From: a virus
DNA: 34,633 bases
IMG/VR virus record: IMGVR_UViG_3300039106_000514
Location: 1-34,633 of that record
Direction: 5' to 3' (one strand)
Below are positions 16,001 through 22,764 of this stretch, piece by piece. The notes under the pieces were generated by a model. It was given only the letters and a program-made list of their open reading frames with translations. It was not told the DNA's origin and ran no database searches. Positions within the stretch are counted from its first letter, which is position 1, and every line of letters starts with the position of its first letter. The translations under genes were made by a program, and so were the position numbers.

Positions 16001-16210
16001 ATGAAAAATTATAAAGTAGCAGTATACAACTGGTATGATGAAACTATCGATATAGTTCATACAACCACGTCTAGTGGTTTAACCGCTATGGAAGAAGTAT
16101 TAATCTTACCCGAAGTTGGAAAGATGACCGAAGAAGAGTATTGCTTAAAAGAAATAAATCGCGGTGGATTTATAGGTTATGAAGAGTGTTTAGGAGTGAA
16201 TATAGTGTAA
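16001..16210 (+). CDS. Small hypothetical protein ending inside tRNA-His
   Basis: A 69-residue protein, MKNYKVAVYNWYDETIDIVH, then KMTEEEYCLKEINRGGFIGY. The last codons GTG AAT ATA GTG TAA are also the 5' acceptor and D arm of tRNA-His. No ribosome site stands out beyond an AT-rich leader after tRNA-Trp. Function unknown. Confidence 0.65.
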   Translation: MKNYKVAVYNWYDETIDIVHTTTSSGLTAMEEVLILPEVGKMTEEEYCLKEINRGGFIGYEECLGVNIV

Positions 16211-16822: not shown

Positions 16823-16996
16823 GTGCCACTATATAATTATAAATGTACTAAATGCGGTCATGAGTTTGAAGGTATTGCTAGATATAGTGAGTCAGCAACT
16901 AAACCTTGTCCAGAATGCGAACAAATAGCAGAAAAACAACTATCAGCTACAGAAAATATTAAATTTACAGGAATTCGTGGCTCTGCAACAATGTAA
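16823..16996 (+). CDS. FmdB-like zinc-ribbon protein, GTG start
   Basis: A 57-residue protein read as MPLYNYKCTKCGHEFEGIAR, then KPCPECEQIAEKQLSATENI. C8-x2-C11 and C29-x2-C32 form a zinc ribbon of the FmdB/CxxC_CxxC regulatory-protein type, which also starts MP.Y.Y.C..CG in bacteria. GTG 16823 follows AAGGA; the ATG two bases earlier is in another frame. Its stop overlaps the next start (TAATG). Confidence 0.75.
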   Translation: MPLYNYKCTKCGHEFEGIARYSESATKPCPECEQIAEKQLSATENIKFTGIRGSATM

Positions 16997-17469
16997 TGAA
17001 TATTTTTATATTAGACTATAACATTGAAAAATGCGCGCAGTACCATTGCGATAAACACGTAGTTAAAATGTGTATTGAATATGCACAACTATTGTCTAGT
17101 GTTCATCACCACTATGGTAAGCCTGCAGGATATAGACTAACACATAAAAATCATCCTTGTGCAGTATGGGCTAGAGCCAGTCTAAGTAATTATCAGTATC
17201 TAATGGAGTTGACCTTCGCTTTAGGCGATGAGTATACTTATAGATATGGAAAGCATCACAAAAGTGTAGAGTTAGTAGAGTCTTTACCACCAATAGAATT
17301 TATTGATATTGGTTTAACTCCTTTTGCTAAAGCTATTGCAGTTCCAGAAATTAAAGCAATCCCAGATGCAGTTGATGCATATAGGGAATATTATAGAGTG
17401 GAAAAAGCGGGTATAGTATCATGGAAGAAACGAGAAGTACCAGAATGGTTTAAAGCGGGATTGGTGTAG
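16996..17469 (+). CDS. Conserved phage protein (HCDKHVVKM ... THKNHPC)
   Basis: A 157-residue protein. MNIFILDYNIEKCAQYHCDK, HVVKMCIEYAQLL, YRLTHKNHPCAVWARASLSN and YRYGKHHKSVELVE are highly characteristic of a protein found in many large phages; I cannot assign a proven activity. Conserved His/Cys/Lys residues suggest an enzyme or metal site. Its last codons GCG GGA TTG GTG TAG also form the 5' end of tRNA-Gly. Confidence 0.75.
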   Translation: MNIFILDYNIEKCAQYHCDKHVVKMCIEYAQLLSSVHHHYGKPAGYRLTHKNHPCAVWARASLSNYQYLMELTFALGDEYTYRYGKHHKSVELVESLPPIEFIDIGLTPFAKAIAVPEIKAIPDAVDAYREYYRVEKAGIVSWKKREVPEWFKAGLV

Positions 17470-17528: not shown

Positions 17529-17545
17529 AATTTTAAGGAGATAGT

Positions 17546-18160
17546 ATGAAAGTTTATTTAAGCAATTATAGAGACCACTGGCTCTCTCCATATACTATTT
17601 TGGAGAAAGTTATATTTTGGAAAGAAATAGATTATGATAGCACATATACTAAAAAGATAGTAAATGTGCTTAGTCCTATTTCAGAAGCAGTTAAAAAAGT
17701 ATTAGATGTAGTTCACCCACGAATAAACTATGTACAAGTAGATAAGTATGATACTTGGAATATGGATAGTACTTTAGCTAACATTATTTTACCAATGCTT
17801 ATTCAGCTTAAAGCTACTAAGCATGGAGTACCAAGTGCTTTTGCTGAAACTGGTGGCGAAGTATGGAAACTACAACAATCTTTTGAGTTCTATGAAACTA
17901 ATGAAGAACTACAAGATAAAGCTATGGCAGAATGGGATGCAGTCTTAGATAAGATGATTTTCTCTTTTGAGCATATAGTAGATAAAAGTGACTGGGAAAA
18001 AGAATTTTGTTCTGGAGAATTTGACAGTAATATAGAGTTAGGTGAACCAGGCTGGACAGGAACATATGTTTGCGATTATGCAGCTATGGAAAAAGTACAT
18101 GAACAAATACAGGAAGGCTTAGAATTATTCGGTAAGTACTATCGTAATCTATGGGATTAA
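17546..18160 (+). CDS. Conserved phage protein (NYRDHWLSPYTILEKVIFW)
   Basis: A 204-residue protein. MKVYLSNYRDHWLSPYTILE, the HPRINYVQVDKYDTWNMDST block and ANIILPMLIQLKATKHGVPS mark a protein widely present in phages infecting aquatic bacteria; function unknown. AAGGAGATAGT precedes the start. The long helical C-terminus is acidic. It immediately precedes the tmRNA acceptor piece, whose P2 strand begins within about four bases of the stop. Confidence 0.8.
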   Translation: MKVYLSNYRDHWLSPYTILEKVIFWKEIDYDSTYTKKIVNVLSPISEAVKKVLDVVHPRINYVQVDKYDTWNMDSTLANIILPMLIQLKATKHGVPSAFAETGGEVWKLQQSFEFYETNEELQDKAMAEWDAVLDKMIFSFEHIVDKSDWEKEFCSGEFDSNIELGEPGWTGTYVCDYAAMEKVHEQIQEGLELFGKYYRNLWD

Positions 18161-18222
18161 AACAGCGTAAACCATAAAGTAAGGCATGTTGGACGCGGGG
18201 GCAGTACCCGCCCAATCCACCA
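18161..18222 (+). ncRNA. ssrA: tmRNA acceptor (3') piece of a permuted two-piece tmRNA
   Basis: The T stem GCGGG (18195-18199)/CCCGC (18207-18211) closes the loop GGCAGTA, followed by acceptor strand CCAATCC (18212-18218), discriminator A and encoded CCA (18220-18222). The acceptor strand pairs with GGGTTGG at 18809-18815, giving seven pairs including the alanine-identity G3-U70 wobble. Upstream strands AGCG (18164-18167), CCAT (18172-18175) and CATGTT (18185-18190) pair with CGCT, ATGG and AACGTG of the coding piece, forming a P2-like helix. The T loop lacks TTCRA; I recall a GGCA-type loop from described permuted tmRNAs, to be checked. The 5' boundary is approximate. Confidence 0.85.
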
Positions 18223-18254
18223 ATAAATAGTCTTAAATTAGCGTAGGAGTTAAT

Positions 18255-18821
18255 ATGACAAAAGAAATAATAAATGAAGAGTTCATTAAGTATGTTTTGG
18301 AAGGAAAGACTATCCCGGAACTACAAAATATATATGATAACTGTAGTAGGAGTAAGATTGTTAGGATAAAGAAAGATTTAGATTTAATAGGTAAGTCCCC
18401 CAACGGTAGAAAAATAGATAGAGATTTAGGCGAGAAAGAGTGTACAGCATGTAATATAACATTTCCTTTAGCTAATTTTTATTCAAATGGTAAAACCCCT
18501 AGGGGAACTCAAAAGTATAAGTCAAAGTGTATCTCCTGTGAAAATCACGAGAGAAAAGATAGCTTTATAGATTTAATATTTGATTATTTAACTTCTAAAG
18601 ATAGTGTATATGCCTGTATTAAATGTGGGTTTTATGGGGAGTATGGTTCTCTAGATTTTCATCATAGAAACCCTTCCTTAAAGCTATTTAATATAGGTAG
18701 AACTAGTTTAACATACTCAAAAGAGTCTTTTTATGCTACAGTAGTACCTGAAATAGAGAAATGTGATTTATTATGTCCAAATTGTCATAGACAAGAACAT
18801 TTATTAATGGGTTGGAAATAG
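18255..18821 (+). CDS. HNH endonuclease lodged inside the permuted tmRNA gene
   Basis: A 188-residue protein. An N-terminal HTH-like segment (residues 8-50, GKTIPELQNIYDNCSRSKIV) is followed by a zinc site C63-x2-C66 with C92-x2-C95. The HNH fold follows: CIKCGF (121-126), LDFHHRNPS (133-141) with the catalytic His pair, and CDLLCPNCHRQEH (170-182). It is a typical free-standing phage homing-type endonuclease. GTAGGAG precedes the ATG. The gene fills nearly all of the segment (18223-18808) that must be removed to mature the tmRNA, and its last codons GGT TGG AAA TAG lie in the mature tmRNA 5' end. Confidence 0.9.
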   Translation: MTKEIINEEFIKYVLEGKTIPELQNIYDNCSRSKIVRIKKDLDLIGKSPNGRKIDRDLGEKECTACNITFPLANFYSNGKTPRGTQKYKSKCISCENHERKDSFIDLIFDYLTSKDSVYACIKCGFYGEYGSLDFHHRNPSLKLFNIGRTSLTYSKESFYATVVPEIEKCDLLCPNCHRQEHLLMGWK

Positions 18822-18960
18822 TTTCGACAACGTGAGATAGGATAATGGCGCTAGACAAGAAAGTCTTAAAAATCAAACAAACTCTAAATGCAAATGACGA
18901 GTACTTTGCTATAGCCGCTTAGGCTTAGCTATCGTAACTATACGGTATTAAGAAAAATAG
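18809..18960 (+). ncRNA. ssrA: tmRNA coding (5') piece with tag ANDEYFAIAA
   Basis: It begins GGGTTGGAAATAG then TTTCGAC (18822-18828), the conserved tmRNA 5' element. AACGTG (18829-18834) and ATGGCGCT (18845-18852) pair with the acceptor piece, and AGAC/GTCT (18854-18865) forms a hairpin. After an A-rich stretch the resume codon GCA at 18890 opens ANDEYFAIAA and stop TAG (18920-18922). This matches bacterial tags such as ANDENYALAA but with IAA rather than LAA at the end. GCTA-AGCC/GGCT-TAGC around the stop and CGTA/TACG (18934-18945) are downstream helices. Few pseudoknots seem present, so this is a compact tmRNA. The 3' boundary is uncertain. Confidence 0.9.
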
Positions 18961-18963
18961 TGG

Positions 18964-18999
18964 TAAAGCCCCGAAGAATATTTGGGGCTTTACTTTTTT
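18964..18999 (+). terminator. Rho-independent terminator of the tmRNA transcript
   Basis: TAAAGCCCC (18964-18972) pairs with GGGGCTTTA (18984-18992) followed by a six-T run. Confidence 0.9.
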
Positions 19000-19018: not shown

Positions 19019-19047
19019 TTGACAAACAGCCTAAATCGGAGTATAAT
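19019..19047 (+). promoter_or_regulatory. Rightward consensus promoter
   Basis: TTGACA (19019-19024), 17-bp spacer, TATAAT (19042-19047), directly after the tmRNA terminator. It drives the transglycosylase-ThyX operon. Confidence 0.9.
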
Positions 19048-19071: not shown

Positions 19072-19602
19072 ATGAATATTCAGCGCATACCAATCACGTT
19101 AGTATTTTTAAGTATGCTAACATTTTCATCAAGCGTAGTGCAACCTACAGTATATGTAGATAAATTCAAACATACCAAATTAGTAGAATATATTAGTTCA
19201 AGGTATAATGTAGACTACCACCAAGCTAAAGAAATAGTTATATTAGCTGAACAACATAGTAATAAAAATAAGTTTCCAAGAGTATATGATACTTTAGCAA
19301 TTATTGGAATAGAAAGTAGTTATAAAATAACAGCCGTATCAAAATCAAAAGCTAAGGGATTGATGCAAGTATTATATACTAAAACATCTTTTGACCCTAA
19401 GTTGAATATATTGCATGGAACTACATTACTAAAAGATTACGCAAAAGTATTACCAACTAGAGATGCAGTAATACAGTCCTACAATGTAGGTATAGGTAAC
19501 TTTAAAAAGGGTATACGAAATCAAGACTACTTAAATAAATTTAAAAAAGAAAAAGAAAGGTTACAGTATGCAGATAATGTTTGGGAAAGTACCAGAAGAT
19601 GA
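19072..19602 (+). CDS. Exported lytic transglycosylase (SLT fold)
   Basis: A 176-residue protein. Residues 1-25 are a signal peptide or anchor (IPITLVFLSMLTFSSSVVQ). The lysozyme-like SLT domain follows: AIIGIESSYK with catalytic Glu81, SKAKGLMQVLY, then QSYNVGIGNFKKG. It cleaves peptidoglycan glycan strands in the periplasm. It is expressed with nucleotide-metabolism genes rather than lysis genes, so a signal-peptide endolysin or an early envelope function are both possible. GAGGAAAGCG precedes the start. Confidence 0.85.
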   Translation: MNIQRIPITLVFLSMLTFSSSVVQPTVYVDKFKHTKLVEYISSRYNVDYHQAKEIVILAEQHSNKNKFPRVYDTLAIIGIESSYKITAVSKSKAKGLMQVLYTKTSFDPKLNILHGTTLLKDYAKVLPTRDAVIQSYNVGIGNFKKGIRNQDYLNKFKKEKERLQYADNVWESTRR

Positions 19603-21571: not shown

Positions 21572-21599
21572 AATATATTAAATCAGAAAAGGAAACCAA

Positions 21600-21872
21600 A
21601 TGAAAATTTTAGAATTTAAATACACTAAAGATGATGGTAAAGTATCTCAACGCACTGTTGTTGAACTTAATGCCCCCAGTAAAAACTACTTTGGTATTGA
21701 TATATCAGAATTAGATGTAGATTTACAATTAGCGTTTGGTAAAGATATGGATTTCTTAAAAACACGATACGATAGGCAAATTGCTGATGTTATGACTAAT
21801 TATGATATTAAACATAACTTTAGAAATTTTGACCCTAAGAAGATGGAGGATTTAGTTGTTGAAGCGTGCTAA
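21600..21872 (+). CDS. Conserved phage protein, 90 residues
   Basis: MKILEFKYTKDDGKVSQRTV, then NYFGIDISELD and KHNFRNFDPKKMEDLV. The opening plus the NFDPKKM motif near the end mark a small protein seen in many phages; function unknown. AAAGGAAACCA precedes the start. Confidence 0.75.
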   Translation: MKILEFKYTKDDGKVSQRTVVELNAPSKNYFGIDISELDVDLQLAFGKDMDFLKTRYDRQIADVMTNYDIKHNFRNFDPKKMEDLVVEAC

Positions 21873-22380: not shown

Positions 22381-22392
22381 GGAAAAATAAAT

Positions 22393-22764
22393 ATGGCATG
22401 GACAGAAGAACAAAAAGTTAAAGCAATTGCAGCTTATGAGGCAGGTGGTCCAACTCCTGAAAACTCAACAGAACTAATTAAAGAAATCGCTGAAGAATTA
22501 GAACAGTCACCTAATGGTGTTCGTATGATTTTAGTTCAAGCAGGCGTTTATGTTAAGAAAGAAGCATCTGCATCTACTGGTACTAAAACTAAAGCAAGCG
22601 GTGATGCCCCTAAACGCATATCTAAAGAGTCTCAAATTGCTGAACTACGTGCTGCTATTGAAGCAGCTGGTGCTGAAGCAGATGACGAAGTTTTAGATAA
22701 ATTGACAGGTAAAGCAGCAGCCTACTTCGCAGGTGTTATTACTCAAGCAAATAAATCAGAATAA
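22393..22764 (+). CDS. HTH DNA-binding protein, D5-repeat family
   Basis: A 123-residue protein, MAWTEEQKVKAIAAYEAGGP, then EELEQSPNGVRMILVQAGVY, the same module as in 353-670 (STRSIVAKLSREGVY). A Lys/Ala/Ser-rich linker and an acidic helical tail (DDEVLDKLTGKAAAYFAG) follow in the same order. AAGGAAAAATAAAT precedes the start. Probably abundant; role inferred as DNA binding. Confidence 0.8.
   Translation: MAWTEEQKVKAIAAYEAGGPTPENSTELIKEIAEELEQSPNGVRMILVQAGVYVKKEASASTGTKTKASGDAPKRISKESQIAELRAAIEAAGAEADDEVLDKLTGKAAAYFAGVITQANKSE

Follow-up and report, generated by a model that had tools for sequence, protein, structure and literature searches.

A predicted circularly permuted tmRNA gene of a T5-like phage with an HNH endonuclease gene in its intervening segment

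The tmRNA gene and the nested HNH gene

tmRNA is an RNA that rescues stuck ribosomes. The window analysed here is the whole 34,633-nt stretch of viral DNA in IMG/VR record IMGVR_UViG_3300039106_000514, and the phage is T5-like. Positions 18164-18961 of the window are almost certainly a circularly permuted two-piece tmRNA gene with an HNH endonuclease gene nested in the removable segment. The features of the locus are as follows:

18164..18222, + strand: tmRNA acceptor piece (P2 3' strands, T arm, acceptor 3' strand and CCA); 5' limit uncertain
18195..18211, + strand: T arm with a 5-bp stem (GCGGG/CCCGC) and the loop GGCAGTA
18212..18222, + strand: acceptor 3' strand CCAATCC (18212-18218), followed by A and CCA (18220-18222)
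18223..18808, + strand: intervening segment (IVS) of 586 nt, filled by the HNH gene and predicted to be removed by cleavage
18223..18228, + strand: 5' strand of the IVS terminal stem, ATAAAT, pairing with 18799-18804
18237..18254, + strand: hairpin ATTAGC-GTAGGA-GTTAAT in the leader, whose loop holds the Shine-Dalgarno of the HNH gene; the hairpin is retained in the related loci L002, L008 and L010
18255..18821, + strand: HNH endonuclease gene (P0001, 188 aa) with N-terminal HTH, zinc ribbon and HNH; stop within the mature tmRNA
18799..18804, + strand: 3' strand of the IVS terminal stem, ATTTAT, within the HNH codons for H-L-L
18809..18961, + strand: tmRNA coding piece, whose 5' end GGGTTGG (18809-18815) pairs with 18212-18218; 3' limit uncertain
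18890..18922, + strand: tag frame ANDEYFAIAA and stop (GCA AAT GAC GAG TAC TTT GCT ATA GCC GCT TAG)
18962..18994, + strand: terminator-like intrinsic hairpin and T run closing the unit (one found versus 1.2 expected in shuffles)

The CCA-ended acceptor piece lies 5' of the coding piece within one gene, which is the permuted order. The coding piece begins with GGGTTGGAAATAGTTTCGAC and contains TTTCGAC, and the acceptor stem between the pieces has all seven pairs, including G3-U70. The motif GGAC stands directly 5' of the T arm, the T loop is uninterrupted, and the tag frame has an alanine resume codon and an AA ending followed by a stop. When the two pieces were folded with a short linker in ViennaRNA, the acceptor stem, the T stem and a P2-like helix of 7+4+4 bp (18185-18191/18828-18834, 18172-18175/18845-18848 and 18164-18167/18849-18852) were obtained. 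The initial annotation, made from the letters of the window, had proposed this acceptor pairing, the P2-like helix, TTTCGAC, the tag and an IVS of about 586 nt, and each was found where it had been placed, the IVS being exactly 586 nt. The same annotation regarded the IAA ending of the tag as unusual, which did not hold, since other phage tags also end in IAA. A perfect sigma-70-type promoter (TTGACA-17-TATAAT, 12/12) is present just past the tmRNA terminator at 19019-19047 and precedes a transglycosylase-like gene (19072-19602).

Standard tools overlooked the gene. At gathering thresholds Rfam detected tRNAs but no tmRNA in the window, and ARAGORN reported no tmRNA when the full IVS was present. 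At permissive thresholds the coding piece matched RF01850 beta_tmRNA (E 2e-10) and RF04321 tmRNA_permuted (E 5e-6), and the acceptor piece matched RF01849 alpha_tmRNA (E 1e-5). The covariance-model scores were 38.9, 38.6 and 26.4 bits (cut-offs 84, 47 and 50, respectively), with one piece per match and models that span a short IVS; the shortfall is attributed to the splitting of the gene by 586 nt. Both pieces match tmRNA models, each below its gathering score; a full-length match above that score is a criterion of the database and not of biology. With the IVS interior omitted, ARAGORN reported a permuted tmRNA with the tag ANDEYFAIAA at three different remaining IVS lengths. The program therefore fails because the IVS is long, that is, on the insert and not on the tmRNA, and the nested layout explains why such genes are overlooked. 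A megablast of window positions 1-25000 against named phages gave no match, nor did the acceptor piece alone.

The HNH open reading frame is intact and its product matches the phage HNH family phrog_2255 (E 1.2e-25). An AlphaFold2 model of the protein (pLDDT 85, pTM 0.47) contains a three-helix HTH-like N-terminal domain, a zinc ribbon that superposes on Hpy99I (Z 8.0, rmsd 1.2, 47 residues) and a C-terminal part with weak similarity to the Gme HNH nickase (Z 4.1 over 61 residues). Several members of the family match the Pfam HTH and HNH models; the window protein scores below the cut-off of the Pfam HNH model. NCBIfam gave weak HTH-type matches only, and a Foldseek search with the model gave no match at E <= 0.001. 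Thirteen residues are invariant across 17 relatives, including C121, C124, D134, H136, H137, C174, C177, H178 and H182. Sequence and model together predict a beta-beta-alpha-metal HNH motif with zinc-binding cysteines. Values of dN/dS between the HNH genes range from 0.13 (window/L002) to 0.33 where dS is computable, with dS near saturation, and the gene is under purifying selection. No relatives were found in plasmids. A scan of 84,980 prokaryote genomes yielded two weak archaeal-MAG relatives only and no tmRNA case; since it used conserved peptide patterns, this absence is no proof. A search with the leader pattern ATTARCGTAGGAGTTAAT was set aside, as it led back to the L002 and L008 contigs, already known, and otherwise to an unrelated ORF family.

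The final codons of the HNH gene (EHLL-MGWK-stop) overlap both the IVS terminal stem and the acceptor strand of the tmRNA, and the reading frame (18255-18821) ends past 18809, which agrees with the original proposal that its stop lies in the mature RNA. The same stem bases therefore both shape the tmRNA precursor and encode protein; in the HNH case they also contribute to the mature tmRNA. The terminal stem measures 6, 6, 5 and 12 bp in the window, L002, L008 and L010, respectively; in these HNH alleles its 3' strand falls in the codons for E-H-L, and one of its pairs is A-T in the window, G-T in L002 and G-C in L008. Such a stem and a TGAT or TAAT end are common to phage permuted tmRNAs with short IVSs. 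Across phage permuted tmRNAs the longest helix between the IVS ends averages 9.5 bp; exchanging ends between loci gives 6.3 bp (maximum over 200 exchanges, 6.8 bp), and shuffling the letters gives 5.0 bp. A hairpin over the Shine-Dalgarno can form between CCA and the HNH start in all four complete cases.

Related loci and protein-coding intervening segments

Relatives of the layout were sought in IMG/VR by related-locus search and junction-pattern scans. Four more viral contigs share it, three complete (L002, L008 and L010) and one truncated at the contig edge (L288/L495), so that the case is not unique. In the truncated contig the edge cuts the HNH gene, and the junction and the tag ANDEVYALAA are present. 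The HNH proteins of L002, L008 and L010 are 58%, 56% and 48% identical to that of the window, and their IVSs are 579, 582 and 577 nt long, respectively. In all five cases the HNH frame enters the coding piece, crossing its first G in one and the same phase, and stops in the mature tmRNA, with the junction residues HLL-MG, HLV-MG, HLL-MG, HLI-VG and HLL-MG. For the shortened L010 gene ARAGORN reported the tag ANDSEYRLAA; it rejected the shortened L002 and L008 genes. In L008 the HNH-bearing tmRNA (1934-2588) contains a C5.A68 mismatch, GGAA for GGAC, and TTTCGATTAGG; it looks partly degenerate and is perhaps a decaying copy.

Compensatory changes between the two acceptor strands, whose lack in relatives would by the initial annotation have spoken against a tmRNA, were observed (GGGTTGG/CCAATCC, GGGGCAG/CTGCTCC and GGGGTAG/CTACTCC) with G3-U70 kept; between the window and L002, pairs 4-6 are altered on both strands. 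Among 43 distinct permuted viral tmRNAs, selected as candidates with at least 6 of 7 pairs, stem positions 4, 5 and 6 take 3, 5 and 4 pair types, respectively, and G3-U70 occurs in all 43, with T70 fixed by the scan pattern. The central proposal, that the tmRNA is permuted and two-piece and that its removable segment holds a complete HNH gene, is upheld by the Rfam matches, the ARAGORN result on the shortened gene, the four further contigs, the acceptor-stem changes and the selection on the HNH gene.

A scan of IMG/VR for a T arm followed by CCA also yielded permuted tmRNAs without HNH. Among about 128 permuted phage tmRNAs, open reading frames occur in most IVSs of at least 80 nt and in every IVS above 200 nt; by inspection, all 28 of the latter hold one or two, some of them GTG-started. 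A spanning ORF was defined by an ATG start at most 30 nt after CCA and coverage of at least 75% of the IVS. In the set that was not chosen for a Shine-Dalgarno, 11 of 23 IVSs of at least 80 nt have a spanning ORF versus 1.7 expected from shuffling. In a second scan TAARGA had to follow CCA, a condition that selects for the Shine-Dalgarno and not for an ORF; with both scans pooled, the count is 73 of 98 versus 4.7 expected. The Shine-Dalgarno usually stands directly after CCA in coding IVSs. The initial statement that the segment is normally short holds for the bacterial models but not for phages, in which many IVSs are 80-470 nt long and coding.

The cargo genes are diverse. Thioredoxin is encoded in L404 and L439 (PF00085, E 4e-21) and an IscU/NifU N-terminal protein in L477 (PF01592, E 3e-55), where ARAGORN independently calls a tmRNA spanning the IscU gene. 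Other cargoes include a PGDYG protein (L329) and a family of hydrophobic (membrane) microproteins of about 24 aa. Loci with coding IVSs include L404, L439, L477, L466, L447, L329, L126, L134, L162 and about 65 more. Two consecutive ORFs are apparently present in the IVSs of L455 (474 nt), L457 (256 nt) and L431 (273 nt). The coding IVSs of L485, L429, L441 and L476 have no plain ATG-spanning ORF, some having GTG starts, and in L476 the Shine-Dalgarno leader is tandemly repeated. Candidates L369, L222, L493 and L494, with IVSs of 639-1525 nt, were discarded, either as pairings by chance in which GGG/GGAC features are absent or because a nearer partner took their place. Of 72 cargo stops, 42 are TGA-T|GGG, 18 lie inside the IVS and 12 inside the mature tmRNA. 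The IVS ends in TGAT in 104 of 120 cases, so a cargo stop at this place may simply use sequence conserved for processing. In the named phages for which this analysis found a permuted tmRNA, XacN1, QDWS595 and DLP_6, the IVSs (114, 74 and 31 nt, respectively) are non-coding. It is highly probable from these sequences that the discarded segment of phage permuted tmRNAs is a general slot for protein-coding cargo. This class points to a gene arrangement that is widespread among aquatic phages and has been overlooked, and in which the phage form of an essential-type bacterial RNA gene doubles as host for protein genes.

Origin, alternatives and possible maturation

Relatives of the HNH reside in tRNA clusters of unrelated phages. 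Their stop codons lie between -60 and +10 nt from a tRNA border in 21 of 48 tRNA-bearing loci versus 5.5 expected under random placement, and the genes often overlap the 5' end of a same-strand tRNA by 9-15 nt; the corresponding value for the coding piece in the window is -13. By our reading, an ORF adjoining a tRNA borrows its stop codon from the conserved tRNA bases U8-A9-G10 and U13-A14-G15. Since its relatives adjoin phage tRNA genes, the window HNH is most likely a tRNA-associated, free-standing endonuclease of the homing type, of a subfamily specialised on permuted tmRNA, and that the gene is a homing-type element is judged probable. Homing of the nuclease into permuted tmRNA or tRNA genes, as first suggested, is plausible. 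The tmRNA-linked HNHs of the window, L002, L008 and L010 form one group (SH-aLRT 92), whereas the tmRNAs that carry them form no single clade (p-AU 0.037, a weak result from 164 columns with long branches). The position of the unit also differs between genomes, L002 placing it between homologues of window 21582-21872 and 22381-22764. Scattered host tmRNAs and differing positions fit a mobile, tRNA-associated homing-type element. An insertion would be tolerated in a permuted tmRNA because the IVS is discarded, and homing-type endonucleases would thereby gain a niche with no need of an intron.

The locus also holds other genes at tRNA borders. The ORFs 16001-16210 and 16996-17469 each end 15 nt within a tRNA gene, tRNA-His (16196) and tRNA-Gly (17455), respectively, and RNase P processing would therefore strip their stops too. 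The gene at 17546-18160 (phrog_11543) is 97% identical to L302 2982-3615 and L303 1653-2286; the match spans window 17529-18160, from the 3' side of tRNA-Gly to the stop codon, with unrelated sequence beyond. These sharp limits suggest that the gene is a mobile module lying between the tRNA and the tmRNA. L302 and L303, with 96% identity in the protein of this upstream gene, were rejected as empty-site alleles, as no tmRNA follows the gene. No near-identical phage with an empty tmRNA site was found. In L406, from the same phage group, ARAGORN calls a permuted tmRNA whose IVS has a different ORF of 55 aa and no HNH.

The strongest alternative, though itself unlikely, is that the HNH is resident cargo that serves the phage through competitor exclusion or SegB-like amplification of tRNA or tmRNA, is inherited vertically with the tmRNA and no longer homes. 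The HNHs of the window and its relatives are 56-58% identical, about as similar as the core proteins that the phages share (49-65%), a level that agrees with long vertical residence no less than with homing. The purifying selection on the HNH is in line with residence, as are the clearly non-homing thioredoxin and IscU genes in the same slot of other phages and the amplification of anti-defence tRNA genes by SegB (PMC13096335). Residence sits poorly with the spread of HNH relatives through the tRNA clusters of unrelated phages in the manner of a mobile family, with the lack of a single clade of HNH-bearing tmRNAs and with the different genome places of the unit in the window and L002.

A relic or pseudogene in place of a tmRNA, with the HNH simply lying in a tRNA cluster beside tRNA-like remnants, is much less probable. 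The scores below the Rfam cut-offs and the partly degenerate L008 copy point in this direction, but the 7-bp acceptor stem, T stem, P2 and tag of the window are all intact, compensatory changes are seen among relatives, and ARAGORN accepts the shortened gene. The tmRNA with the nested HNH is very likely functional. Loosely read as one statement, the nested gene, a functional tmRNA and a homing-type HNH are together considered likely.

Retention of the segment, either as a very large loop of a continuous RNA that acts as tmRNA or with the HNH spliced out in an intron, is most improbable. The RNA ends at 18222 and 18809 are predicted from sequence; however, these positions are the mature 3' and 5' ends in the permuted gene order, phage permuted tmRNAs with short IVSs have the terminal stem and the TGAT/TAAT end as well, and no intron family matches the window. 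A group I intron was rejected on the same Rfam result and on the uninterrupted T loop. An artefact of assembly or binning that joined unrelated pieces can practically be dismissed: all five cases are metagenomic contigs, but the junction recurs in five separate metagenome projects with 48-58% protein identity.

For the nested tmRNA/HNH gene, the following maturation is proposed. Transcription would probably proceed through the upstream tRNA operon and end at about 18994, and in the precursor the acceptor stem would be extended by the IVS terminal stem. As in known permuted tmRNAs, RNase P would cut 5' of 18809, 3' processing would leave CCA at 18222, and the acceptor and coding pieces would pair into a two-piece tmRNA that uses host SmpB. 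The HNH would be translated from uncut or IVS RNA through its own Shine-Dalgarno. Since its last codons overlap the IVS stem and the acceptor strand, the maturation cut would strip the stop codon and leave a nonstop message, which may have a regulatory effect. Feedback on the HNH by this route is tentatively suggested. A similarly guarded proposal is that tmRNA cutting and cargo translation regulate each other; in many loci the Shine-Dalgarno lies in, and the last codons form, the precursor stem near the RNase P site. If true, the cut HNH message could be tagged by the very tmRNA in which it is nested, an autoregulatory loop. Two questions thereby become directly testable: does a ribosome-rescue RNA, through its maturation, control the message nested in it, and does this RNA then tag the nested protein?

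Comparison with known systems

Phage permuted tmRNAs are already known. Two-piece permuted tmRNA is encoded by phages such as Methylophilales phage Melnitz, and two-piece forms were predicted for 53 of 133 phage tmRNA structures (PMC9004378). These mostly aquatic, phage-borne genes share with the window the order of acceptor piece, IVS and coding piece; no protein gene was described in their IVSs (PMC9004378), whereas the 586-nt IVS of the window encodes an HNH. A 2025 database paper contains 79 bacteriophage tmRNAs in all (PMC11915505). The bacterial permuted tmRNAs (RF01849, RF01850, RF01851 and RF04321) resemble the window gene in acceptor, T, P2 and tag and in a precursor that is cut in two (PMC11915505), but the IVS of their family models is short. 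Among permuted tmRNAs, the paper describes a repeat element in one IVS (the longest gene measuring 1152 bp) and a tRNA-Ala in another (PMC11915505). A protein-coding IVS in a permuted tmRNA was not found described in the open-licence literature, and one with an HNH is apparently new within the open literature searched; a prior account elsewhere is possible.

Homing endonuclease genes in tmRNA have been reported from group I introns only (PMC11915505). The group I intron tmRNAs with LAGLIDADG resemble the window in having a homing-type endonuclease gene inside a tmRNA gene, but there the T loop is interrupted by a self-splicing intron, which forms the insert (PMC11915505). The window has no intron and a different nuclease family, and its segment is discarded anyway. 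The SegB gene of T4 and T6, like the window HNH gene, adjoins tRNA genes and has a hairpin over the ribosome-binding site; SegB is however a GIY-YIG enzyme encoded between tRNA genes and not within an RNA gene (PMC2988022, PMC13096335). In this respect the HNH leader hairpin recalls T4 endonuclease genes, segB among them, whose ribosome-binding sites are likewise covered by hairpins (PMC2988022). Homologous counterparts are the phrog_2255 HNHs of phage tRNA clusters, for example in L004, L023, L080 and L084, whose gene ends adjoin or overlap the 5' end of a tRNA. These genes lie beside an RNA gene in tRNA clusters, and their products share about 20-38% identity with the window HNH, which is encoded inside one.
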